NCBI GenBank assembly: GCA_028868995.1
Contig: JAGWTH010000024.1
Location: 1 to 58,068, forward strand
DNA: 58,068 nucleotides
Origin: Burkholderiales bacterium
Lineage (GTDB): Bacteria; Pseudomonadota; Gammaproteobacteria; Burkholderiales; Burkholderiaceae_C
Direction of reading: 5' to 3'
The position numbers and the translations under genes were made by a program. Every line of letters starts with the position of its first letter. Positions within the stretch are counted from its first letter, which is position 1. Below the pieces are notes generated by a model. The model saw only the letters and a program-made list of their open reading frames with translations, was not told where the DNA came from and ran no database searches. This document shows positions 2,463 to 14,387 of the stretch, one piece after another.

Positions 2463-3230
2463 TCAGGCGGCGCGGACTTGCGGCACCGCGCCGGCTGCCG
2501 CGGCCACGCCGCGCACGACGTCGCCCACCACGATGACCGACGGGCTCGCCAGCGACTCCCGCTCGATGGTCGCCGTCAGCTGGCCCAGCGTCGTCACCGC
2601 CTGCCGCTGGTCCGGCAGCGAGGCGCGCTGGACGATGGCCACCGGCGTGTCGGCCGGCAGGCCCGCGAGCAGGTCCTGCTCGATGCGCGCGGCGCTGCTC
2701 ACGCCCATGTAGATCACCAGCGTGAGGCGGGCCTGGCGGGCCGTCGAGGCCAGCGTCTTCCAGTCCGGGGCGTCGGCCTCCGTGCGGGCGTGGCCGGTGA
2801 CGAACAGCACGCCCTGCGCGTGCTCGCGGTGCGTGAGCGGCACGCCCAGCGAAGTCGCCGCGGCCAGGCCCGAGGTGATGCCGTTGACGATCTCCACGGT
2901 CACGCCGGCAGCGCGCAGGTGCTCCACCTCCTCGCCGCCGCGGCCGAAGATGAAGGGGTCGCCGCCCTTCAGCCGCACCACCTGCTCGCCCTCGCGCGCG
3001 GCCATCAGCATCAGCCGCTCGATGAAGGCCTGCGGCGTGCTCTTGCAGCCGCCGCGCTTGCCGACGTGGATGATGCGCGCGCCCGGCGCGGCGTGCGCCA
3101 CGACCTCCGGGCTGACGAGGTCGTCCACCAGCAGCACGGTGGCGGCCCGGATGGCCTTGAGCGCCTTGAGGGTCAGCAGCTCCGGGTCGCCGGGGCCCGC
3201 GCCGACCAGGGTGACTTTGCCGGTGTTCAT
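2463..3230 (-). CDS. cobA: Uroporphyrinogen-III C-methyltransferase (SUMT)
   Basis: A 255-residue stand-alone SUMT. It transfers two methyl groups from S-adenosylmethionine to uroporphyrinogen III, giving precorrin-2 on the way to siroheme. Family motifs are present: VGAGPGDPELLTLKA (residues 10-24), VDDLVSPEV (about 35-43) and KGGDPFIFGRGGEE. The CysG oxidase/ferrochelatase domains are absent and must be encoded elsewhere. Siroheme is the cofactor of NirB, which explains its place at the end of the nitrate assimilation operon. Its ATG overlaps the ybiB stop by 4 bp (ATGA), so the two are probably translationally coupled. Confidence 0.93.
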   Translation of the reverse strand: MNTGKVTLVGAGPGDPELLTLKALKAIRAATVLLVDDLVSPEVVAHAAPGARIIHVGKRGGCKSTPQAFIERLMLMAAREGEQVVRLKGGDPFIFGRGGEEVEHLRAAGVTVEIVNGITSGLAAATSLGVPLTHREHAQGVLFVTGHARTEADAPDWKTLASTARQARLTLVIYMGVSSAARIEQDLLAGLPADTPVAIVQRASLPDQRQAVTTLGQLTATIERESLASPSVIVVGDVVRGVAAAAGAVPQVRAA

Positions 3231-4132
3231 GCGGTCGAGAGGTGCAAGATGTGTTCCACCTGCAGTGCGAGTGAATCGGGCGTGGGCTTGCGGCCCGACA
3301 GGACGTCCCGGATGTAGGCGGCCGTGGTGTCCGGGTCCACCGCTGCGGGCAGATCCGGCAGCTGCGCGAGGCTGCCCTTGCGACCCTCCTGCAGCGTCAG
3401 GCGTTCGCCGCGCACGAAGCCGTCCATCTGCGGCAGGCGGCGCGCGTCGGCCACCACCTCACCCTCGGTGCCGCGCAGCAGCAGGGCCGTGGCGTGCATG
3501 CGCTCGAACACGGCGGCCATGGAGACCGCGTATTCCGGATGGGTGTAGCTGCTCACGATCACGGCGGGGCCTTCGCAGGGATTCATCAGCTTGACCAGGC
3601 TGTGCGCGCTGTTGCGCAGGCCGATCACCCGGCGGGCGTCGAGCAGGCGCTTGAGGCCCGGGCACAGCACCTCGGTGGGCACGAAGGCGACCTGGCCGTC
3701 GGCCAGCACCGGGGGCGTTTCGCTCGCCTGCACGTCCAGGGCCTGCAGCACGTCGCGCACGAACACGCGGCTGGATTCGGTGGCGGTGCCGTGGATCAGC
3801 ACCGGCAGGCCGCGCCGGGCCACCAGGCCGGCCAGCAGCGGGGTCAGCACGGGCAGGCGGCGCGCGCCGTTGTAGCTGGGCAGGACGACCACCGGCTTGC
3901 CGCTGGCCGACTTCACCTTGCGCAGGCGGGCATCGGTCGCATCGAGGAAGCCGCACATCTCCTCGGGCGTCTCGCCCTTCACCCGCATCGCGATGCAGAA
4001 GGCGCCGACCTCCAGGTCGCTCACCTGGCCGTCCAGGAGCTGGCCGAACAGGTCCGCCGCTTGCTCGCGCGACAGCGCTCGCGCGCCCTGCTTGCCGCGG
4101 CCGATTTCCTTGAGGTACTGGCTGATGCCCAC
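3227..4132 (-). CDS. ybiB: YbiB-type DNA-binding protein (TrpD2 family)
   Basis: A 301-residue homologue of anthranilate phosphoribosyltransferase fold proteins of the YbiB/TrpD2 group. The N-terminal helical domain (about residues 1-70) includes LSREQAADLFGQLLDGQVSD and the signature GAFCIAMRVKGETPEEM. The central part carries LPSYNGARRLPVLTPLLAGL. E. coli YbiB binds nucleic acids rather than making tryptophan precursors and is LexA-regulated. Here it sits between nasA (54-bp gap) and cobA (4-bp overlap), an arrangement I associate with nitrate clusters of Burkholderiales. Its job there is not known. It is not a biosynthetic TrpD by context. Confidence 0.85.
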   Translation of the reverse strand: MGISQYLKEIGRGKQGARALSREQAADLFGQLLDGQVSDLEVGAFCIAMRVKGETPEEMCGFLDATDARLRKVKSASGKPVVVLPSYNGARRLPVLTPLLAGLVARRGLPVLIHGTATESSRVFVRDVLQALDVQASETPPVLADGQVAFVPTEVLCPGLKRLLDARRVIGLRNSAHSLVKLMNPCEGPAVIVSSYTHPEYAVSMAAVFERMHATALLLRGTEGEVVADARRLPQMDGFVRGERLTLQEGRKGSLAQLPDLPAAVDPDTTAAYIRDVLSGRKPTPDSLALQVEHILHLSTA

Positions 4133-4186: not shown

Positions 4187-6994
4187 CTAAGCCGCCCGCG
4201 CCCACGGCGCCACCGAGCGCACCATCCGCTTCAGCTCCGGCACGCACGACCCGCAATTCGTCCCGCAGCGCAGCCGCCCCTGCAGCGATGCCAGCCGCTC
4301 CTCGGGCGAGCCGGCGCAGCCCGCGAGATGCCCCTCGATCGCCGCTTCTTCCACGCCGAAGCAGCTGCACACCTGCCGGCCCTGGCGCGGCACCCCGAGC
4401 GGCGCCTGGGGGCCCGGCGCCAGCAGCAGCCGGCCATAGGCCTGCGCCGGCAGCTGCTGCTGCAGCAGCGACTTCAGCCAGGCCTCGGCGCTCGTGTCGC
4501 CCGCGAGCAGCAGGGCGTCCAGCAGCAGGTCCCCGCCCGCGCGGCGCACCCGCACGCGGCGGCGCTGGCCCCGGCGGGGATCGGCGTAGCGCAGCGTGTC
4601 GGCGCCGTCCAGGCCCAGCAGCGACTCGATCCGATGCAGCACCGCCTCGGGCGGCGCCTCGCAGGCCGCCGCCCGAAACAGCACGCCGTGGCGATCGGCG
4701 GCCGCGGCCTGTTCCAGCGGCGCATGCCCGGAGAACGGTACGCAGGAGGCGAAGGGAAACTGTGCCATCAGGGGCCTCAGCTGCTCGCGCACGCGCAGGG
4801 CCTCGTCGGCCGGCAGCCAGCCCGCGGCCAGCAGCGTCCAGGGCAGTTCGGCCGGCAGGATCTTCACGGCCGCGTGCTTCAGTTCCGGCTGTCTGGCCAC
4901 CGGGCAGGACGCCGAGGTGGTGAGCGCGTTCACGCCCGCGAGGCGCTCGCCCGTGCTGGAGACGCCGCCCAGGAACTCCGGTCCCCAGTGCATGGCGATG
5001 AAGGCCTGGCGGAGGCCCAGCTCGCTGGCGGCCTGCACCGGCAGCACGATGGAGCCGCGGCGGGAGGTCACGTGCACCAGGTCGCCTTCCTTCAGTCGGC
5101 GCCGAACCAGGTCCTGCGGGTGCAGCTGCACCACCGGCTCGGGCACGTGGCCGAACAGGCGGCCCAGGGTGCCGGTGCGGCTCATGCCGTGCCACTGGTC
5201 GCGCAGCCGGCCGGTGGTGAGCGAGAAGGGGTAGCGCGCATCGCGCGGTTCGGCCACCGGCCGCCAGGCGACCGCGGCGAAGCGCGCCTTGCCGTCGGGG
5301 GTGGGAAAGACGCCGTCCTCGTACAGGCGCGCGCGGCCCCGCGCCGCGCCCTCCGGGAAGGGCCACTGCTGCGGCGCGTGCTCCACCAGCGCATAGGACA
5401 GGCCGGTGATGTCCAGGTCGCGGCCGCGGGTCGATTCACGGTGCTCGCACCAGATGGATTCGGGGGTCGCGTAGGGGAAGAGGTTGGGGGAGGGCACGGG
5501 GCGGGGCAGCCGCCCCTCCAGCCGCCGCGCGAAATCCACCGCGATCTCCCAGTCGTGCCTTGCGCTGCCCGGCGCCGCGATCGCGGGGCGCACGCGGCTG
5601 ATGCGCCGTTCGCTGTTGGTGACCGTGCCGTCCTTCTCGCCCCAGGTGGTGGCCGGCAGCAGCAGGTCGGCCCAGGCGCAGGTCTCGGTGGTGGCGAAGG
5701 CTTCCTGCACGACGATGAATTCCGCTCGCTGCAGCGCCCGCTTCACGGTGGCCTGGTCCGGCATCGACTGCGCCGGGTTCGTGCACGCGATCCAGAGGGC
5801 CCGGATCTCGCCGTCGGCGGCGGCCTGGAACATCTCCACCGCGGTCTTGCCGGGCTTCTCGGGCACCGAAGGCACACCCCACAGCGCCGCCACCTCCGCC
5901 CGGTGCGCGGGGTCGGCCAGGTCGCGGTGCGCCGGCAGCAGGTTGGCCAGGCCTCCCACCTCGCGCCCGCCCATCGCGTTGGGCTGGCCCGTGAGCGAGA
6001 ACGGCCCGGCGCCCGGGCGGCCGATGTGCCCGGTGGCCAGGTGCAGGTTGATCAGCGCAGCGTTCTTGTCGGTGCCGGCGGCGGACTGGTTCAGCCCCTG
6101 GCAATACAGGCTCAAGGTCGCCCCGGAGGTGGCGAACCAGCGGGCGGCGGTCAGCAGGTCCTCGGCCGGGATGCCGCAGGTCTGCGCCACCCGCTCGGGC
6201 GTGCAGTCGCGCACCAGGGCCTTCAGCTCCTCGAAGCCGCTCGTGTGCGCCGCGATGTAGTCGGGTCGGGTCCAGCCTTCCCACAACATGAGGTGCAGCA
6301 GGCCGTGGAACAGCATCACGTCGGTGCCGGGCTGGATCGGCAGGAACAGGTCGGCGATCCCGGCGGTGTCGGTGCGGCGCGGGTCGCACACGATGACCTT
6401 CATCGGCGGCCGGCGCGCCCGGGCCTCCTCGATGCGGCGGAACAGCACCGGGTGGGCGAAGGCGGTGTTGCTGCCCACGATGAACAGGCAGTCCGCGTGG
6501 TCCACGTCCTCGTAGCAGGACGGAGGCGCATCGGCGCCCAGGGTGCGCTTGTAGCCCGCCACCGCGCTGCTCATGCACAGGCGCGAATTGGTGTCGACGT
6601 TGTTGCTGCCGATGAGGCCCTTGGCCAGCTTGTTGAAGACGTAGTAGTCCTCGGTGAGCAGCTGGCCCGAGATGTAGAAGCCCACGGCGTCGGGGCCGTG
6701 GGCGCGGACCACGCCGGCGAAGCGGTCGGCGGCGAGATCCAGGGCGGCGTCCCAGCCCACCCGCAACGGCGGCTCGCCGCGCCGCTCGCGCAGCATGGGG
6801 TGCAGCAGCCTGGCCTGCCGCGTCACGGCCTGCGAGGCAGTGAGGTGCAGCGTCGAGCCCTTGCTGCACAGCCGCCCGAAGTTGGCCGGATGGTCCGGGT
6901 CGCCGCGCACGCCGGTGATGCGATCGCCTTCGGAGGCGATCAGGACGCCGCAACCCACCCCGCAATAAGGGCAGGTGGACTTCGTCTCCGTCAC
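4187..6994 (-). CDS. nasA: Assimilatory nitrate reductase catalytic subunit
   Basis: A 935-residue cytoplasmic molybdoenzyme that reduces nitrate to nitrite. The N-terminus has a [4Fe-4S] motif with Cys8, Cys11, Cys15 and Cys43. The middle is a molybdopterin oxidoreductase domain with bis-MGD signatures (VDTNSRLCMSSAVAGYKRTL; ALWIACTNPAQSMPD). A C-terminal molydopterin-binding domain contains TGRLRDQWHGMSRTG. The last about 60 residues form a BFD-like [2Fe-2S] domain (QVCSCFGV, CGTNCGSC), as in Klebsiella NasA, which accepts electrons from a reductase partner. There is no Tat signal, consistent with assimilation. Its ATG overlaps the nirD stop by 4 bp. The electron-donor subunit (NasC-like) is not seen in the window. 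Confidence 0.95.
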   Translation of the reverse strand: MTETKSTCPYCGVGCGVLIASEGDRITGVRGDPDHPANFGRLCSKGSTLHLTASQAVTRQARLLHPMLRERRGEPPLRVGWDAALDLAADRFAGVVRAHGPDAVGFYISGQLLTEDYYVFNKLAKGLIGSNNVDTNSRLCMSSAVAGYKRTLGADAPPSCYEDVDHADCLFIVGSNTAFAHPVLFRRIEEARARRPPMKVIVCDPRRTDTAGIADLFLPIQPGTDVMLFHGLLHLMLWEGWTRPDYIAAHTSGFEELKALVRDCTPERVAQTCGIPAEDLLTAARWFATSGATLSLYCQGLNQSAAGTDKNAALINLHLATGHIGRPGAGPFSLTGQPNAMGGREVGGLANLLPAHRDLADPAHRAEVAALWGVPSVPEKPGKTAVEMFQAAADGEIRALWIACTNPAQSMPDQATVKRALQRAEFIVVQEAFATTETCAWADLLLPATTWGEKDGTVTNSERRISRVRPAIAAPGSARHDWEIAVDFARRLEGRLPRPVPSPNLFPYATPESIWCEHRESTRGRDLDITGLSYALVEHAPQQWPFPEGAARGRARLYEDGVFPTPDGKARFAAVAWRPVAEPRDARYPFSLTTGRLRDQWHGMSRTGTLGRLFGHVPEPVVQLHPQDLVRRRLKEGDLVHVTSRRGSIVLPVQAASELGLRQAFIAMHWGPEFLGGVSSTGERLAGVNALTTSASCPVARQPELKHAAVKILPAELPWTLLAAGWLPADEALRVREQLRPLMAQFPFASCVPFSGHAPLEQAAAADRHGVLFRAAACEAPPEAVLHRIESLLGLDGADTLRYADPRRGQRRRVRVRRAGGDLLLDALLLAGDTSAEAWLKSLLQQQLPAQAYGRLLLAPGPQAPLGVPRQGRQVCSCFGVEEAAIEGHLAGCAGSPEERLASLQGRLRCGTNCGSCVPELKRMVRSVAPWARAA

Positions 6995-7365
6995 CGGCAG
7001 GGCCCCGCCTTCGGCGGCGCGGCATCGATCGCCAGCGTGGCCAGTTCCACCGGGTCCAGCAGCACCTCGCCGCCCTCGACGCGGCAGGAGAAGCGCTGGG
7101 TGCAGCCTTCGTCCGGCGCCTTGGCGCAGCCGTCATCCAGCCCGATCGTCCAGTTGTGCAGCGGGCAGGCCACGCTGGTGCCGAACACGATGCCCTGCGA
7201 CAGCGGGCCGCCCTTGTGCGGGCAGCGGTCCAGCAGCGCGAACACCTGGTCCTCGCCGTTGCGGAACACCGCCACGTCCATGCCGCGCGGGCGCGCCACC
7301 CGCCGTGAACCCAGCACCGGGATGTCTTCCACCCGGCAGATCACCTGCCAGTCGTTCGCCTTCAT
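6991..7365 (-). CDS. nirD: Nitrite reductase [NAD(P)H] small subunit
   Basis: A 124-residue Rieske-fold small subunit of the NADH-dependent nitrite reductase. The Rieske ligands are actually present (Cys48, His50, Cys67, His70 in CPHKGGPL and CPLHNW), unlike E. coli NirD where the cluster ligands are lost. It therefore probably carries a [2Fe-2S] centre. The start is the ATG at 7365, which overlaps the nirB stop (ATGA); a much longer frame upstream is a shadow of nirB. It is coupled on both sides, to nirB and nasA. Confidence 0.93.
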   Translation of the reverse strand: MKANDWQVICRVEDIPVLGSRRVARPRGMDVAVFRNGEDQVFALLDRCPHKGGPLSQGIVFGTSVACPLHNWTIGLDDGCAKAPDEGCTQRFSCRVEGGEVLLDPVELATLAIDAAPPKAGPCR

Positions 7366-9809
7366 GCCGGTTGCCCTTCCTTGTTCAGCTTCTCGAACTG
7401 GCGCGTGTCGACCTGCGCCTTGTCGTGCTCGAACCAGGGGTCGGGCTCGCCGTCCAGGGCGAACTGCAGCCGCTCCCACAGCGCCTGGCGGCCTTCGTGG
7501 TCGTCCAGGATCTTCTTCTTCACGTAGTCCAGGCCGACCCGGTTCACGTAGTGCACCGTGCGTTCCAGGTACCAGCCTTCCTCGCGATACAGCTGCAGGA
7601 AGGCGCCGCTGTATTCCAGCACCTCCTCCTTGCTCTTCACCTTGCAGAGGAACTGGCCGGCCTCGGTCTTGATGCCGCCGTTGCCGGCCACGTAGATCTC
7701 CCAGCCGGAGTCCACGCCGATCACGCCGACGTCCTTGATGCCGCTCTCGGCGCAGTTGCGCGGGCAGCCCGAGACGGCCAGCTTGACCTTGTGCGGCGCG
7801 TACATGCGCCACAGGGCGCGTTCCAGGTCCTTGCCCATCTGCGTGCTGTCCTGGGTGCCGAAGCGGCACCATTCGCTGCCCACGCAGGTCTTCACCGTGC
7901 GCAGGGCCTTGGCGTAGGCATGGCCGGACGGCATGCCGATGTCCTTCCAGACGTTCTGCAGGTCCTCCTTCTTCACGCCCAGCAGGTCGATGCGCTGGCC
8001 GCCGGTGACCTTGACCGTCGGGATCCGGTACTTGTCGACCACGTCGGCGATGCGGCGCAGCTCGGACGCCGTGGTCTCGCCGCCCCACATGCGCGGGATC
8101 ACCGAATAGGTGCCGTCCTTCTGGATGTTGGCGTGGCTGCGCTCGTTGATGTAGCGCGACTGCGGATCGTCCCTGGCTTCCTTGGGCCAGGTGGAGATCA
8201 GGTAGTAGTTGAGCGCCGGCCGGCAGGTCGAGCAGCCGTTCGGGGTGCGCCACTCCAGGAACTTCATGGTGTCGGGGAGGGTGAGCAGCCGGTTGGCGCG
8301 GATCGCGTCGCGTACCTCCTGGTGGCTGTGGTCGGTGCAGCCGCACACCGCCTTCTTCTTCGGCGCCGCGGAGTAGTCGCCGCCGGCGGTGAACATGAGG
8401 ATCTGCTCGACCAGGCCCGTGCAGGAGCCGCAGGAGCCGCTGGCCTTGGTGTGCTTGCGAACCTCGTCCAGCGTGAACAGGCCCTTCTCCTTGATCGCCT
8501 TGCAGATGGCGCCCTTGCTCACGCCGTTGCAGCCGCAGACCTCATCGGCGTCGGCCATGGCGGCCGCCCGGTTCTGGCCCTGGTGGCCGGCGTCGCCCAG
8601 GTTGGATTCGCCGAACATCAGCCGGTCGCGGATATCGCCGATGGCGCGTCCCTCGCGCAGCAGCTTGAAGTACCAGCTGCCGTCGACCGTGTCGCCGTAC
8701 AGGCAGGCCCCCACCAGCTTGTCTTCCTTGATCACCAGCTTCTTGTAGACGCCGCCGAAGGGATCGCTCATGACGATTTCCTCGGTCCCGTCGCCGCCCA
8801 TGAATTCGCCGGCGGAAAACAGGTCGATGCCGGTGACCTTGAGCTTGGTGGAAGTGAGCGAGCCCGTGTAGCGGCCGATGCCGAACTGGGCCAGGTGGTT
8901 GGCCGCGACCTTGGCCTGCTCGAACAGCGGCGCCACCAGGCCGTAGGCGATGCCCCGGTGGGCCGCGCATTCGCCGACCGCGTAGATGCGGGCGTCGGTG
9001 ACGGTCTGCATCGTGTCGGTCACCACGATGCCGCGGTTGCAGTGCAGGCGCGCGCTCTCGGCCAGCTGGGTGTTGGGGCGGATGCCCACGGCCATCACCA
9101 CCAGGTCGGCCTCGACCTCGCTGCCGTCCTTGAATTTCACGGACGTGACGCGGCCGTCGGGGCCGGCCACCAGCTCCTGGGTCTGGGCGCCGATCAGGAA
9201 CTTCAGGCCGCGCTCCTCCAGCGACTCCTGCAGCAGCTTGCCCGCCACGTCGTCGAGCTGGCGTTCCATCAGCCAGGGCATGACGTGCACCACGGTGACG
9301 TCCATGCCGCGCTTCATGAGGCCGTTGGCCGCCTCCAGCCCGAGCAGGCCGCCGCCGATGACGACCGCCTTGCGGTACTTCTGCGCGGCCTCGATCATCG
9401 CGTTCGTGTCGGCGATGTCGCGGTAGGCGATCACGCCGGGCAGCTCGCGGCCCGGCACCGGCAGCAGGAAGGGGTTGGAGCCCGTGGCCAGCAGCAGGCG
9501 GTCGTAGGCCTCCTCGGTGCCGTCGTCGGCGCGGACCACCCGCTTCACGCGGTCGACCTCCACCACCTTCCGGCCCGCGTGCAGGCGGATGCCGTTGTCC
9601 CGGTACCAGTCCCAGGAGTTGAGGACGATCTCGTCCAGCGTCTGCTCGCCGGCCAGCACCGGCGACAGCAGGATGCGGTTGTAGTTGGGATGCGGCTCGG
9701 CGCCGAAGACCGCGATCTCGTGGAGATCCGGCGCGATCTTCAGCAGCTCCTCCAGCGTGCGGACACCGGCCATGCCGTTGCCGACCATCACCAGCTTCGT
9801 CTTCTTCAT
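7362..9809 (-). CDS. nirB: Nitrite reductase [NAD(P)H] large subunit
   Basis: An 815-residue siroheme enzyme reducing nitrite to ammonium with NADH. It has an N-terminal FAD/NAD-binding part (VGNGMAGVRTLEELL at residues 9-23; VIGGGLLGLEAANGL near 150). A BFD-like [2Fe-2S] domain follows (VCGCNGV, ASGSCGSCTGLVEQ). The C-terminal sulfite/nitrite reductase domain has the siroheme/[4Fe-4S] ligands TCVGSEWCRFG and SGCPRNCAESG. Length is normal for the family. The start is the ATG at 9809, 17 bp after nrtD; the open frame continues upstream into nrtD only as a shadow. Cytoplasmic, operating with NirD and dependent on the CobA siroheme branch. Confidence 0.95.
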   Translation of the reverse strand: MKKTKLVMVGNGMAGVRTLEELLKIAPDLHEIAVFGAEPHPNYNRILLSPVLAGEQTLDEIVLNSWDWYRDNGIRLHAGRKVVEVDRVKRVVRADDGTEEAYDRLLLATGSNPFLLPVPGRELPGVIAYRDIADTNAMIEAAQKYRKAVVIGGGLLGLEAANGLMKRGMDVTVVHVMPWLMERQLDDVAGKLLQESLEERGLKFLIGAQTQELVAGPDGRVTSVKFKDGSEVEADLVVMAVGIRPNTQLAESARLHCNRGIVVTDTMQTVTDARIYAVGECAAHRGIAYGLVAPLFEQAKVAANHLAQFGIGRYTGSLTSTKLKVTGIDLFSAGEFMGGDGTEEIVMSDPFGGVYKKLVIKEDKLVGACLYGDTVDGSWYFKLLREGRAIGDIRDRLMFGESNLGDAGHQGQNRAAAMADADEVCGCNGVSKGAICKAIKEKGLFTLDEVRKHTKASGSCGSCTGLVEQILMFTAGGDYSAAPKKKAVCGCTDHSHQEVRDAIRANRLLTLPDTMKFLEWRTPNGCSTCRPALNYYLISTWPKEARDDPQSRYINERSHANIQKDGTYSVIPRMWGGETTASELRRIADVVDKYRIPTVKVTGGQRIDLLGVKKEDLQNVWKDIGMPSGHAYAKALRTVKTCVGSEWCRFGTQDSTQMGKDLERALWRMYAPHKVKLAVSGCPRNCAESGIKDVGVIGVDSGWEIYVAGNGGIKTEAGQFLCKVKSKEEVLEYSGAFLQLYREEGWYLERTVHYVNRVGLDYVKKKILDDHEGRQALWERLQFALDGEPDPWFEHDKAQVDTRQFEKLNKEGQPA

Positions 9810-9826: not shown

Positions 9827-10672
9827 TCAGGCCGCGACCTGTTCCCGTCGGCCGAAGCCGCCAGCCCTGCGCGGGGCGATCGGCTCCACCTTGCGCTGCT
9901 TCTCGTACAGGAAGGTGAGGATCTCCTGGCGGCAGTGGTTGTAGGCCTTGTCCTCGGCCAGCGCGATGCGGTTGCGCGGCCGCGCCAGGGGCACGTCCAT
10001 CACCTGGCCGATGGTGGCGGCCGGCCCGTTGGTCATCATCACCACGCGGTCGGACATCAGCACCGCCTCGTCCACGTCGTGGGTGATCATCATCACGGTG
10101 TTGCCCAGCTCGGACTGGATGCGAAGGACTTCGTCCTGCAGGTGGGCACGGGTCAGCGCGTCCAGCGCGCCAAAGGGCTCGTCGAGCAGCAGCACCTTGG
10201 GCTCCATGGCCAGCGCCCGGGCGATGCCCACGCGCTGCTTCATGCCGCCGGAGATCTGCGAGGGCAGGCGGTCCAGCGCGTGCGACATGTTGACCATGGC
10301 CAGGTTGTGCAGGATCCACTCCCGGCGCTCGGCGGCGGAGCGGGTGGCGCGGAAGATCTTGTCGACCGCGAGCTCCACGTTCTGGTAGACGGTGAGCCAC
10401 GGCAGCAGCGAGTGGTTCTGGAACACCACCGCGCGGTCCGGCCCGGGGGCGTTCACCTCGCGGCCGTCGACGATCACGCCGCCCGAGCTGGCCTCGAGCA
10501 GGCCCGCCACGATGTTCAGCATCGTGGACTTGCCGCAGCCGGAGTGGCCGATCAGCGAGATGAACTCGCCGCGCCGCACGTCGAGGTCGATGCCCCTCAG
10601 CACCGGGTTGCCGCCGTTGGGGCCGGGGAAGGTCATGTCGACGCGGGACAAGGAAAGATAGGCATTGCTCAC
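9827..10672 (-). CDS. nrtD: Nitrate ABC transporter ATP-binding protein
   Basis: A 281-residue ATPase subunit of the NrtABD nitrate importer. It has the Walker A motif GHSGCGKST (residues 42-50), a Q-loop in VVFQNHSLLPWLTVYQNV, the signature ISGGMKQRVGIARAL, and Walker B LLLDEPFGALD. The sequence is of the NrtD/TauB/SsuB class, which is close to other anion importers, so the nitrate assignment rests on the operon. It lies between nrtB and nirB. The C-terminal tail (about 15 residues, Arg-rich) has no extra domain; the NrtA-like fusion of cyanobacterial NrtC is absent. Confidence 0.92.
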   Translation of the reverse strand: MSNAYLSLSRVDMTFPGPNGGNPVLRGIDLDVRRGEFISLIGHSGCGKSTMLNIVAGLLEASSGGVIVDGREVNAPGPDRAVVFQNHSLLPWLTVYQNVELAVDKIFRATRSAAERREWILHNLAMVNMSHALDRLPSQISGGMKQRVGIARALAMEPKVLLLDEPFGALDALTRAHLQDEVLRIQSELGNTVMMITHDVDEAVLMSDRVVMMTNGPAATIGQVMDVPLARPRNRIALAEDKAYNHCRQEILTFLYEKQRKVEPIAPRRAGGFGRREQVAA

Positions 10673-10772: not shown

Positions 10773-11630
10773 TCAGCCGGCGGACGTGTTTCGGGTGACC
10801 TTGCGGCCGATGAAGGCGACGATGCGGTCCAGGGCGAAGCCCACCAGGCCGACGTACACGAGCGCCAGGATGATGTCGCTCAGCCGCGAGGAGTTCCACG
10901 CGTCCCAGATGAAGAAGCCGATGCCCACGCCGCCGATCAGCATCTCGGCGGCGATGATCGCCAGCCAGGACAGGCCCACGCCGATGCGCAGCCCCGAGAA
11001 GATGAAGGGCGCGGCGGCCGGCAGCATGATCCTGCCGAAGTACTCGAGGCCGCTGAGGCGGATCACCTTCGCGACGTTGCGGTAGTCCTCTGGGATGTTG
11101 CGGATGCCGATCGAGGTGTTGATGATTATCGGCCAGATCGAGGTGATGAAGATGACGAAGATCGCCGACGGGTGGCCGTCGCGGAAGCCGGCCAGCGAGA
11201 TCGGCAGCCAGGCCAGCGGCGGCACGGTGCGCAGCACCTGGAACAGCGGGTCCAGCCCGCGCAGCGCCCAGGTGGATTGACCCACCAGCACCCCGAGGCC
11301 GACGCCCGCCACCACCGCCAGCGAATAGCCCCAGGCCACGCGCTGGAGGCTGGCGAGCAACTGCCAGGCGATGCCCACGTCGTTGCCGCCGTGGTCGTAC
11401 CAGGGATGGACGATCAGCTCCCAGGTGTCCTGCACCACCTTGCTGGGCGAGGGCAGGGCGGCGCCCGGGCGCGAGCCCAGCGCCTGCCAGACCAGCACCA
11501 GCAGGCCGATGACCACCAGCGGCGGCAGCACGTGGGTGAGGAACCCGCGGGCGGCGGCCTGCGCCCCGGCCCGCAGGGCGCCGGGTGTCGCCGGCCGGGC
11601 CACGGGGATGGTTTCGAAGGGGAGGGTCAT
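10773..11630 (-). CDS. nrtB: Nitrate ABC transporter permease
   Basis: A 285-residue inner-membrane permease of the binding-protein-dependent type. After a short N-terminal cytoplasmic stretch come about six hydrophobic segments (for example HVLPPLVVIGLLVLVWQAL, residues 33-51). The EAA-type loop appears in the second half (KVIRLSGLEYFGRIMLPAAA). NrtB-family permeases pair with NrtA and NrtD. It lies 13 bp downstream of nrtA and 100 bp upstream of nrtD. Confidence 0.93.
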   Translation of the reverse strand: MTLPFETIPVARPATPGALRAGAQAAARGFLTHVLPPLVVIGLLVLVWQALGSRPGAALPSPSKVVQDTWELIVHPWYDHGGNDVGIAWQLLASLQRVAWGYSLAVVAGVGLGVLVGQSTWALRGLDPLFQVLRTVPPLAWLPISLAGFRDGHPSAIFVIFITSIWPIIINTSIGIRNIPEDYRNVAKVIRLSGLEYFGRIMLPAAAPFIFSGLRIGVGLSWLAIIAAEMLIGGVGIGFFIWDAWNSSRLSDIILALVYVGLVGFALDRIVAFIGRKVTRNTSAG

Positions 11631-11643
11631 GCGGCGGGCCTCC

Positions 11644-12948
11644 TCAGGCGGCGGACTTCAGGGCCTTGATCGCGAGCGAGTCGAGGTACTTCTTCGGGTT
11701 GGCCGGGTCGAACACCTTGCCATCGAAGAACTTCTCGATGCCGCGCGAGGTGGAGGCCGGGATGTCCGCGGCGGCGACGCCCAGTTCCTTGGCGGCGGCG
11801 CGCCAGAGGTCCTCGCGGTTCACCTTGGCGATCAGGGACTGGGTGTCCAGGCCGGGCGGCAGGTAGCCCCAGCGGATGTTCTCGGTGAGGAACCACAGGT
11901 CGTGGCTGCGGAAGGGGTAGCTGGCGTGGTCCTTCCAGTAGCGCATCTGGTAGGGGCTGTTCTGCACGACGCGCCCGGTGCCGTAGTCGAAGTTGCCCTG
12001 GATGCGGTCGACGATGTCCGCCACCGGGGCGCTGATCCAGCGGCGGCGCGAGCAGATCTCGGCGACCTCGGCCCGGTTCTTCGGGTCCTCGCACCACATC
12101 TGCGCCTCCATCACCGCCTTCAGCAGCGCCTTGGTCGCGTTCGGATGGGCCTGCACATAGTCGGCACGCAGGGCGAAGGCCTTCTCCGGGTGGTTCATCC
12201 ACAGCTCGCTGGTGGTGAGCGCCGTGTAGCCGATCTTCTGATGGATCAGCTGCAGGTTCCAGGGCTCGCACACGCAGAACGTGTCCATGCTGCCCACCTT
12301 CATGTTGGCCACCATCTGCGCCGGCGGCACCACGATGGTGTTGATGTCCCGGTTGGGGTCCACGCCGCCGGCGGCCATCCAGTAGCGGATCCACAGGTCG
12401 TGGGTGCCGCCGGGGAAGGTCATGGCGGCGTTGACCGGCTTGCCGGTGCGCACCCGCTTGTCCAGCAGCGCCTTGCGAAAGGCCCTGGTGTCCACGCCGA
12501 CCTTCAGGTCCTTGTATTCGTCGGACACCGAGATGCCCTGGCCGCCCAGGTTCAGGCGGGCCAGGATGTTCATGGGCACCGGCACGTTGTTGGGCGTGAC
12601 CGCGCCGGTGGTGATCAGGTAGGGCATGGGCGTGAGGATGTGGCCGCCGTCGATGCCGTTGTTCTTCGAGCCGAGCACGAGGTTGTCGCGCGTGGTGCCC
12701 CAGGAGGACTGCTTGAGCACTTCCACCTCGGTCATGCCGTGCTTCCTGAAGAAGCCCTTCTCGTCGGCCACGAACAGCGGCGCGGCGTCGGTCAGCGCGA
12801 TGAACCCCAGCTTGGCCGCCTTGGTCTCCAGCGCCGTGCCCTGGGCCATGACGATGCCCGGGAAGGCGCCCGCGAGGCCGGCGCCGCCGAGGGCGGCCGC
12901 GCCCCGCAGGACGGATCGGCGGGTGACCGGGGAGGTGTTGTCTTGCAT
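11644..12948 (-). CDS. nrtA: Nitrate ABC transporter substrate-binding protein
   Basis: A 434-residue nitrate-binding protein of the NrtA/CmpA family. The N-terminus has a twin-arginine export signal (TRRSVLRGAAAL, residues 9-20, then a hydrophobic stretch ending near AQG), so it is probably exported folded to the periplasm. The mature part begins KLGFIALTDAAPLFVADEKG, typical of the family. It is the first gene of the nrtABD-nirBD-nasA-ybiB-cobA run and follows a 130-nt regulatory leader. CmpA (bicarbonate) is the main alternative, made unlikely by the reductase neighbours. A GAGCT/AGGAG-type ribosome site precedes the ATG. Confidence 0.94.
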   Translation of the reverse strand: MQDNTSPVTRRSVLRGAAALGGAGLAGAFPGIVMAQGTALETKAAKLGFIALTDAAPLFVADEKGFFRKHGMTEVEVLKQSSWGTTRDNLVLGSKNNGIDGGHILTPMPYLITTGAVTPNNVPVPMNILARLNLGGQGISVSDEYKDLKVGVDTRAFRKALLDKRVRTGKPVNAAMTFPGGTHDLWIRYWMAAGGVDPNRDINTIVVPPAQMVANMKVGSMDTFCVCEPWNLQLIHQKIGYTALTTSELWMNHPEKAFALRADYVQAHPNATKALLKAVMEAQMWCEDPKNRAEVAEICSRRRWISAPVADIVDRIQGNFDYGTGRVVQNSPYQMRYWKDHASYPFRSHDLWFLTENIRWGYLPPGLDTQSLIAKVNREDLWRAAAKELGVAAADIPASTSRGIEKFFDGKVFDPANPKKYLDSLAIKALKSAA

Positions 12949-12974: not shown

Positions 12975-13033
12975 AAAAGGAAAACGGCGTCCATCGCGCT
13001 GCAGGCTCAGGGCCTGCAGGGATGGACGCCGTT
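12975..13033 (-). terminator. Leader terminator (attenuator) upstream of nrtA
   Basis: On the minus strand a 13-bp perfect stem (AACGGCGTCCATC pairing with GATGGACGCCGTT) encloses an inner CTGCAGG/CCTGCAG hairpin and is followed by TTCCTTTT. It is a strong intrinsic terminator placed 27 nt before the nrtA ATG, so it must be overcome for the operon to be expressed. Its 5' arm shares bases with the second hexaloop hairpin described separately. Confidence 0.88.
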
Positions 13034-13071
13034 GTCCTGGTGTCGGGTGGATCGCGCGCCGCCGTTGGCGC
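13024..13071 (-). promoter_or_regulatory. Tandem hexaloop hairpins, ANTAR antiterminator target
   Basis: Two hairpins share the identical loop AACGGC: GCGCC-AACGGC-GGCGC (13071-13056) and GGAC-AACGGC-GTCC (13037-13024). ANTAR proteins are known to bind paired hairpins with six-base loops bearing A at position 1 and G at position 4; both loops meet this. The second hairpin uses the same bases as the terminator's 5' arm, so binding would prevent terminator formation. This is the layout of the Klebsiella nasF leader controlled by NasR. Confidence 0.8.
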
Positions 13072-13088
13072 CCGTTCGCGATCAGCCT

Positions 13089-13169: not shown

Positions 13170-14387
13170 TCAGCGCGGGCCGCCCGGCAGCACGTCGGCG
13201 AGCGAAAGCACCGCTTCGGCGACGTCGGCCAGCCGCCGCTTCTGCTGCATCGCCATCTGGCGCAGCGCCTTGTAGGCCTCGTCCTCGCTCATCTGCCGGT
13301 GCGCCATCAGCAGGCCCTTGGCGCGCTCGACCAGCTTGCGTTCGTGCAGCGAGGCGCGCACCGCGTCGAGCTCGTCGCTCATGGCCTGCAGGCGCAGGGA
13401 CTGCTCCTGCACCAGCGCCAGCACCGAGCGCTCCAGCTGCGGCCCCAGGGGCGCGGCGTCGGGCTGGGCTGCCTCCCGCGCCAGCGACCCCAGCAGGGCC
13501 CGCTGGTCCTGCAGCTCACCGAGGGCCTGGGCGATGCGGTGCTCGCACAGCTGGCGCAGGTGCAGGGCCAGCTGGTCTTCCACCGTGCGCATCGCGTCGA
13601 TGCGGCGGGTGGCCCATTCGTACCAGAGGGGACTCAGGTCGCTGTCCAGGGGGCCGGGCCGGGAGGCGCAGCCGATGCGTCGCAGCCGCTCCACCTCCGC
13701 GGTCACGACCGGGTCGCGGCCGGCCTCGTCGGCGCGCTGCAGCTCGGCACCGGCGAAGTCGTGGAACACCCGCAGGCAAGCTTCCTGCGCTTCGATCAGG
13801 TGGCGCCACTGCTGCTGGCCGGCCACGTCGATGGAACCGGCGGCGAACAAGCTGCCGCCCAGCGCGCGCTCCTGGCCGGCGAATTCCTTGCCCTGCAGGA
13901 AGTGGAACATCGCCACCAGGGCGCGCGACACCTCGGGGTCGGTGGCGCTGTCGGCCGCCTCGAACACCACCGCGAGCAGGGCCGCGACCAGCCGGCTGTA
14001 ACCCGCGGTCGCGTCCCGGGCCGACACCGCCTGCGCGGCGACGCGCTGGCGCAGCGCGGGCAGTCCCTCCAGGGCGTGCAGCGCCACGGCGACGCGGCTG
14101 AACAGGCGCGCGCCGTTGCGCGGCCGGCCGCCGTCGGTGTCCAGGTGCTCCAGCAGCGCGCGCACCGCGCGTTGCGCCTCGTCGGAATCGGCCAGCTGGC
14201 GCAGGCGCTCCGGTCCGAGGCGCTGGCCCTGCGAACCGAGAAAGACGTTGGACAGGCCGCGCTCGCGCTGCAGCGCGTGGACGAAGCGGCCGATGGCGCC
14301 GACCAGCTCGCCGGTGCGGGCGAGCTCCTCGAGCTCGGCGATCTCGCATTGGCGGGCGGCCAGCAGGAAGGTGGATCCGGACTTCAC
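13170..14387 (-). CDS. nasR: Nitrate/nitrite-sensing antiterminator (NIT + ANTAR domains)
   Basis: A 405-residue regulator. The N-terminal about 300 residues form a NIT nitrate/nitrite-sensing helical domain ([20 protein letters not shown], then [16 protein letters not shown]). The last about 60 residues form an ANTAR RNA-binding domain ([20 protein letters not shown], then [11 protein letters not shown]). It should release transcription termination in the nrtA leader, which begins just beyond its stop. The start chosen is the GTG at 14387 ([15 protein letters not shown]); no in-frame ATG lies near and no clear ribosome site is visible, so the start is uncertain. The open frame continues upstream only as antisense of tsaD. 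Divergent from tsaD with a 63-bp gap. Confidence 0.9.

Follow-up and report, generated by a model that had tools for sequence, protein, structure and literature searches.

A predicted NasR-type ANTAR antitermination leader with a sigma54-type promoter precedes the nitrate-assimilation operon of a Ramlibacter-type genome

The closest described system is the nasF leader of Klebsiella oxytoca, which is controlled by the NIT-ANTAR regulator NasR (PMC3369936, PMC7496416 and PMC5424462). In PMC7496416, NasR is described as selecting two hairpins with C:G loop closure, the SELEX consensus, and with A and G at loop positions 1 and 4 (i.e. A1 and G4), and nitrate raised nasF read-through from 5% to 52%. 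Both Ntr and NasR controls are described for Klebsiella in PMC5424462, where nasR is called mainly gammaproteobacterial and the hairpins of a nasA leader are proposed as a target of NasT. Terminators under EutV control in Enterococcus likewise combine P1 and P2 hairpins carrying A1 and G4 with an overlapping terminator (PMC3369931) but differ from the present locus in their signal (i.e. ethanolamine, through a phosphorelay) and in their genes. The locus analysed here lies in a stretch of 58,068 nt (hereafter the window) from a genome placed by its relatives as Ramlibacter-type, in which a predicted NasR-type ANTAR antitermination leader and a sigma54-type promoter very probably control the operon nrtABC-nirBD-nasA-ybiB-cobA. 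With K. oxytoca nasF, as described in the Klebsiella papers, this locus shares a NIT-ANTAR regulator, two C:G-closed hexaloop hairpins with A1 and G4, a second hairpin overlapping the terminator and a combination of general nitrogen control with nitrate. It differs from K. oxytoca in the Ramlibacter-type genome, in having nasR directly upstream and in the composition of the operon. Its interpretation as a predicted further example of the NasR-type ANTAR attenuators known from Klebsiella is well supported.

Read on the minus strand, the intergenic region from the stop of nasR (13170) to the start of nrtA (12948) contains the leader. Two hairpins with the identical hexaloop AACGGC had been proposed for this region and were found as P1 (13071-13056, minus strand; GCGCC[AACGGC]GGCGC; -8.6 kcal/mol) and P2, the antiterminator hairpin (13037-13024, minus strand; GGAC[AACGGC]GTCC; -4.0 kcal/mol). 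Both have the C:G closing pair, A1 and G4 of ANTAR target hexaloops. P2 is followed by a predicted intrinsic terminator stem-loop (13033-12983, minus strand; -40.4 kcal/mol) with an outer stem of 13 pairs (AACGGCGTCCATC/GATGGACGCCGTT), an inner stem of 8 pairs and a T-rich tail, TTTTCCTTTT (12984-12975, minus strand), whose T tract is interrupted. The proposed sharing of bases between the 13-pair stem and the second hairpin was also confirmed: the 5' arm of the terminator consists of the loop and 3' arm of P2, so that P2 and the terminator are mutually exclusive.

Folding of the minus-strand leader gave -70.1 kcal/mol for 142 nt as compared to a mean of -49.0 kcal/mol for shuffled sequences (z -6.2), and none of 200 shuffles folded as stably. 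The arrangement of two A1/G4 hexaloops and an overlapping terminator was absent from all 20000 dinucleotide-shuffled versions of the 130-nt leader and was present in one of 4458 sliding 130-nt windows across the 58 kb, that one being the leader itself (13088-12959). When prefixes of the growing transcript were folded, P1 and P2 were predicted for prefixes ending at 13018, 13008 and 12998, and the terminator was predicted instead for those ending at 12989 and 12983; in the prefix ending at 13024, directly after P2, P2 was not yet folded. A co-transcriptional race between the two structures would require an order of folding like the one modelled here. A covariance model built from 12 leaders of other genera, devoid of Ramlibacter sequences (i.e. 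R2), ranked the window leader first in the 3.76-Mb genome with 45.2 bits (E 1.6e-10), in line with the original prediction of an ANTAR-target leader. A model of 18 leaders (i.e. R1) gave it 68.0 bits, a score from a model that contains the window's own leader, and the E-values of both models are rough. Further targets in the same genome were considered and rejected, as the next matches scored just 22.4 bits with R1 and 22.1 bits with R2.

The neighbouring gene is, as proposed, that of a NIT-ANTAR nitrate-responsive antiterminator, nasR (13170-14387, minus strand). Its start codon is uncertain, the only in-frame start codon in 14420-14301 being the GTG at 14387. The product matched Pfam NIT (4.5e-53) and ANTAR (1.9e-18) and the K. 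oxytoca NasR structure 4akk (E 1.5e-50), and was the one ANTAR match in the genome. By our own reading of the numbering, the nitrate-pocket residues E175/R176 and residues R340, K341, K347 and R366 of Klebsiella NasR are kept. Klebsiella W362 is replaced by Tyr, which fits the account of NIT-ANTAR proteins in PMC7496416. Unlike Klebsiella NasR, the window protein lacks E191 and N373 of the NIT-ANTAR interface, which align with Ala and Lys (again by our reading of the numbering), and the NIT-ANTAR coupling may therefore differ. The nasR gene recurs in the family that includes Ramlibacter, which we take to be betaproteobacterial.

The association of the leader with such regulators was examined across 120 family genomes, each genus being represented once with a single exception. 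A leader (i.e. an R1 hit) was present in 42 of the 88 genomes with a NasR/ANTAR match, taken at E <=0.001 against either NasR or the ANTAR part of it (in G027 the match covers NIT only), and in none of the 32 genomes without one (Fisher 6e-8). For 38 of 46 family hits, a same-strand NasR/ANTAR match lay upstream at a distance of 44-491 nt; besides the window's own, 40 of the other 45 hits were read as regions of their own and a 41st lies inside L081. Strong NasR matches (E <=1e-40) occurred in 28 family genomes, with an adjoining leader in 21 and no leader hit beside nasR in the other seven (G018, G022, G033, G039, G078, G079 and G085). Among 60 genomes of the genus, a hit at E <=1e-6 was found in 27 of the 30 with NasR and was missing at this threshold from G123, G159 and G168; G160, with a NasR match of 112 residues, falls outside this count of 30. 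The best 30 of 46 genus hits were read.

In related genera the same dual-hairpin leader also stands behind ANTAR-only genes, judged to be NasT-like from short frames (cf. the NasT-controlled leaders of NasS-NasT systems, e.g. Paracoccus nasA), and in some loci it precedes nirB, away from nasR. NasS-NasT sensing involves two proteins, whereas the window has the one-component NasR. The P2 loop of NasT-type leaders is mostly AAAGGC, in contrast to AACGGC in the window. All 16 family loci with ANTAR-only genes had AAAGGC, as compared to AACGGC in 19 of the 20 with NasR. A P2-loop code for regulator type was nevertheless rejected, being broken by G071 (NasR with AAAGGC; one of those 20 loci), L194 (NasR with AAAGGC) and G130, where a genus leader hit (E <=1e-6) with AACGGC lies beside an ANTAR-only gene; the remaining match between loop and regulator may stem from kinship. 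Two further arrangements were observed around regulator genes. In L022 (minus strand, 1267-1314; genome G053), nasR is flanked on its other side by another dual-hairpin leader with a terminator, which is on the opposite strand. A few kb from nirB and on the opposite strand, several Ramlibacter genomes (G131:C1:584468-584722, G175:C1:548311-548544 and others) contain a second ANTAR-like gene whose match is weak.

Downstream of the leader, the eight genes originally listed were found in the expected order on the minus strand: nrtA (11644-12948; nitrate ABC transporter substrate-binding protein, NMT1_2, a name given from its family and position), nrtB (10773-11630; permease, TIGR01183), nrtC/D (9827-10672; ATP-binding protein, TIGR01184; nrtC hereafter), nirB (7362-9809; nitrite reductase large subunit, TIGR02374), nirD (6991-7365; nitrite reductase small subunit, TIGR02378, with a 4-nt overlap with nirB), nasA (4187-6994; assimilatory nitrate reductase-like molybdoenzyme, whose best NCBIfam matches fall below curated cut-offs), ybiB (3227-4132; NF006005) and cobA (2463-3230; uroporphyrinogen-III C-methyltransferase, with a 4-nt overlap with ybiB). 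As the successive intergenic gaps are 13, 100, 17, -4, -4, 54 and -4 nt, a single transcript from nrtA to cobA is plausible. A scan for further terminators in the operon was silent, which counts for little since the scan did not tolerate bulges and overlooked the main terminator. Of 46 oriented sites, 45 of them distinct (L006 and L088 are one genome), 42 had nrtA within 400 nt downstream. The original prediction had noted ybiB as a gene without an established nitrate link. Its position directly after nasA was, however, kept in all 16 NasR-linked family loci readable that far, a link of place only, and cobA came next in 14 of these; in the other two (L080 and L081) the stretch ends earlier. 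As compared to this, ybiB followed nasA in two of nine loci with ANTAR-only genes, a split that kinship could explain. A search for literature connecting ybiB with nitrate and cobA found nothing.

Covariation in related leaders was examined using two sets. In a structure-blind alignment of 18 leaders, four of the five P1 pairs exhibited two-sided change, with a covariation score of 0.306 as compared to 0.110 for shuffles and <=0.118 for slid controls, and the four pairs of P2 exhibited no variation. A wider set of 87 sites contained 84 with P1, P2 and an overlapping terminator, of which 80, including the window, were distinct. The chance-like L107, the second genome copies L002, L004-L007 and L088 and, from the genus set, the chance-like L146 were left out of the 80-leader and promoter counts. 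The 80-leader set also lacks L202 and L206, which look like chance matches among the 22 RF03032 loci read (see below); the P1 loop begins with G in L144 and L186, two of the 87 sites, which were set aside. Under a stricter test, seven of 46 rows (L081, L107, L111 and L114-L117) had no terminator; a looser test detected one in all of these except L107, which was not examined. Counted as cells, which are sequences and not evolutionary events, two-sided changes numbered 105 in P1 (shuffled mean 32, maximum 47), 5 in P2 (mean 0.16, maximum 3) and 40 in the terminator (mean 18, maximum 24); terminator arms were picked by at least 7/8 complementary letters and P1 loops by stem length, both of which favour pairing, and the shuffles do not correct for this selection.

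Compensatory change, whose absence would have counted against the proposed leader, was thus found for P1. The expectation of covarying stems held for P1 and the terminator. P2 is nearly invariant, with its 5 cells among 80 leaders; as its four pairs hardly vary, conservation of P2 could come from the terminator alone. At base 3 of the P2 loop, 47 of the 80 leaders had C and the other 33 had A. With its terminator partner this base formed C-G in 38 leaders and a pair with both members replaced in 33, and the two did not pair in nine. As base 3 has a partner only in the terminator fold, this joint change supports the second fold. The loop-closing pair of P1 was C:G in 77 and U:G in 3 of 80 relatives; the C:G closure of P2 (80/80) carries no information because it was a search criterion, as were A1 and G4 of the loops. 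Conservation falls on the features that NasR recognizes, and the linker and upper terminator stem are variable.

These patterns bear on whether the terminator merely closes the nasR transcription unit and insulates the operon from it, with nrtA using its own promoter and no antitermination involved. The immediate upstream position of nasR on the same strand agrees with such a role, and gene-end terminators between two genes are common. Only 26 nt, however, separate the end of the T tract from the start of nrtA, the only promoter match near the leader precedes the terminator, and P1 covaries strongly despite lying far from the terminator stem; the occurrence of the leader behind ANTAR-only genes, and before nirB away from nasR, also argues against simple transcript ending, which we regard as very improbable.

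The promoter is a predicted sigma54-type -24/-12 element, TGGCACG-N5-TGC (13104-13090, minus strand), with a predicted +1 near 13078. This element, which was no part of the original prediction, is the sole strict match in the 58-kb window. A sigma54-type match was present within 60 nt upstream of the leader hit for 28/28 genus and 37/38 family leaders (65/66 overall; 28/29 for the genus if L146, left out as chance-like and without a sigma54 match, is added), against an expectation of 0.004 per 60 nt in which the sites themselves are counted. Two predicted NtrC-like palindromes (i.e. putative enhancer sites), CGCACTGTTGCAGTGCA (13162-13146, minus strand) and TGCACAAAGCCGGTGCA (13149-13133, minus strand), were obtained as pattern matches upstream of the leader, where they are two of the three in the whole window. 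Such a site lay within 350 nt upstream of 22/28 genus and 12/38 family leaders, with 0.012 expected per 350 nt. Both the sigma54-type and the NtrC-like elements are matches to assumed consensus patterns, and rpoN is encoded in the genome. A longer lower stem for P1, GATCGC/GCGATC, was rejected: GATCGC (13083-13078) would begin upstream of the +1 that the promoter predicts near 13078, so that most of it would not be transcribed, and among 46 oriented leaders the window alone has GATCGC at this place.

The strength of the sigma54-type signature and the NtrC-like sites would also suit control at initiation only, through sigma54 with NtrC, in which case the hairpins would be a relic or repeats of a DNA operator. 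We consider this scarcely credible, as the covariation takes in G-U pairs and tracks pairing in two alternative folds, and the leader is associated with ANTAR genes. A predicted two-input gate, requiring nitrogen shortage AND nitrate as in Klebsiella, is likely.

The antitermination reading is supported by the covariation of P1 and the terminator and by the tie of the leader to ANTAR genes. The sequence itself shows both hairpins and the overlap of P2 with the terminator, as well as a promoter match and the order of the genes, and comparison with relatives shows the covariation and the link to ANTAR genes; from these we infer NasR binding, a nitrate response and an operon-wide effect. In the proposed mechanism, NtrC and sigma54 would start transcription under nitrogen shortage near 13078, a start that would place P1 approximately 7 nt from the 5' end of the RNA. 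P2 would form before the 3' arm of the terminator is made and would then be displaced by the terminator unless a NasR dimer is bound to both hairpins. NasR with nitrate or nitrite is predicted to bind both hairpins and so to prevent formation of the terminator, upon which transcription would likely continue into nrtABC-nirBD-nasA-ybiB-cobA. The operon would need both signals because initiation by NtrC/sigma54 would depend on nitrogen shortage.

Searches with Rfam at gathering cut-offs returned nothing but a tRNA across the window and no match on 20 related loci. Below the cut-off, a weak match of the leader to P11 (RF00625; 23.1 bits), together with a predicted product of approximately 100 nt starting at a sigma54-type promoter, raises the prospect that the terminated leader acts in trans as a small RNA under nitrogen shortage (cf. 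the Pseudomonas sRNA P11), with or without antitermination. This is unlikely: the match is far under the RF00625 gathering score of 70, and the NasR recognition features are what is conserved in a leader whose linker and upper terminator stem vary.

A second Rfam entry, the narK RNA (RF03032), aligned over P1 and the sigma54 element of the window with 33.2 bits (E 7.3e-5). The leader is under the gathering score of 43.2 and is not filed as a member despite having the same anatomy. The RF03032 consensus opens with the sigma54-like GGCaCAgcucUUGC, continues with P1 and ends in ACGACAAAGACGUCG, which corresponds to an unpaired P2; the model thus pairs P1 only and leaves the terminator outside, whereas the window leader has P1, P2 and the terminator. 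In the family, 15 of 120 genomes, including the window's, had an RF03032 match (E <=0.001); none was above the cut-off, and each closely follows a NasR/ANTAR match. Class-wide, a match was obtained in 16 of 369 genomes, and two of these were above the cut-off (L192:1500-1570 and L193:1500-1575). Both have the promoter, P1, P2 and the overlapping terminator, followed by a NarK-like transporter, which in L193 falls under the cut-off of the NarK model. The flanking ORFs of five class loci were tested: nitrate-type genes lay downstream in all five, and the upstream ORF encoded ANTAR in two (L192, receiver-ANTAR; L194, NIT-ANTAR) and not in L193, L196 or L197. Among the RF03032 loci read, a terminator was not found for L205 and a P1 with A1 was not found for L186. 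The narK RNA is, judging by this anatomy, likely to be an ANTAR leader of the kind in the window.

Additional leaders were examined upstream of nirB. In family loci with nirB more than 1 kb from nrtABC, a second dual-hairpin leader preceded nirB in seven of 14, as compared to none of 23 contiguous loci (Fisher 3e-4), in a classification made by hand that counts each genome once, takes the doubtful L089 as without a leader and includes L080 and L102 on model hits of 24.1 and 19.0 bits, respectively. These second leaders include L079:12743-12792, L080:7351-7397, L081:11133-11182, L108:7106-7168 and L102:4452-4501. For the genus, 30 nirB loci were read, of which 21 had no nrtC within 400 nt upstream. 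A leader was seen by eye in four of these (L148, L156, L164 and L166, two of which are from genomes already counted), a sigma54-type site alone in five and neither in 12, so that the split-operon pattern is weaker in the genus than in the family. The Ramlibacter leaders of L148, L156 and L164 (approximately 1350-1500, upstream of nirB) have P1 as GGGTGC-AAYGCY-GCACCC and P2 as GCGCAC-A..G..-GTGTGC, and no terminator was seen in them. In the predicted folds of these three, unlike L166, the 3' arm of P2 base-pairs in the direction of the ribosome-binding region (3/4), and a translational version of the leader, resting on three leaders, is possible. Taken together, a portable cassette of sigma54 promoter and ANTAR attenuator can be tentatively envisaged, a plausible scheme that we place somewhat short of probable: the narK RNA would be this cassette, either NasR or a NasT-like sensor would adjoin the same RNA, a copy would precede nirB in some split operons, and the output would have moved from terminator to ribosome-binding site in some Ramlibacter nirB copies.

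Several implications follow. A possible function is suggested for the Rfam narK RNA, for which our literature searches gave no text. The 80 distinct leaders provide a set in which the trade-off between terminator and antiterminator can be read through covariation. For the organism itself, a full nitrate-assimilation operon, including a siroheme-pathway gene and ybiB, would stand behind one predicted two-input gate, and YbiB becomes testable as a nitrate-linked protein.
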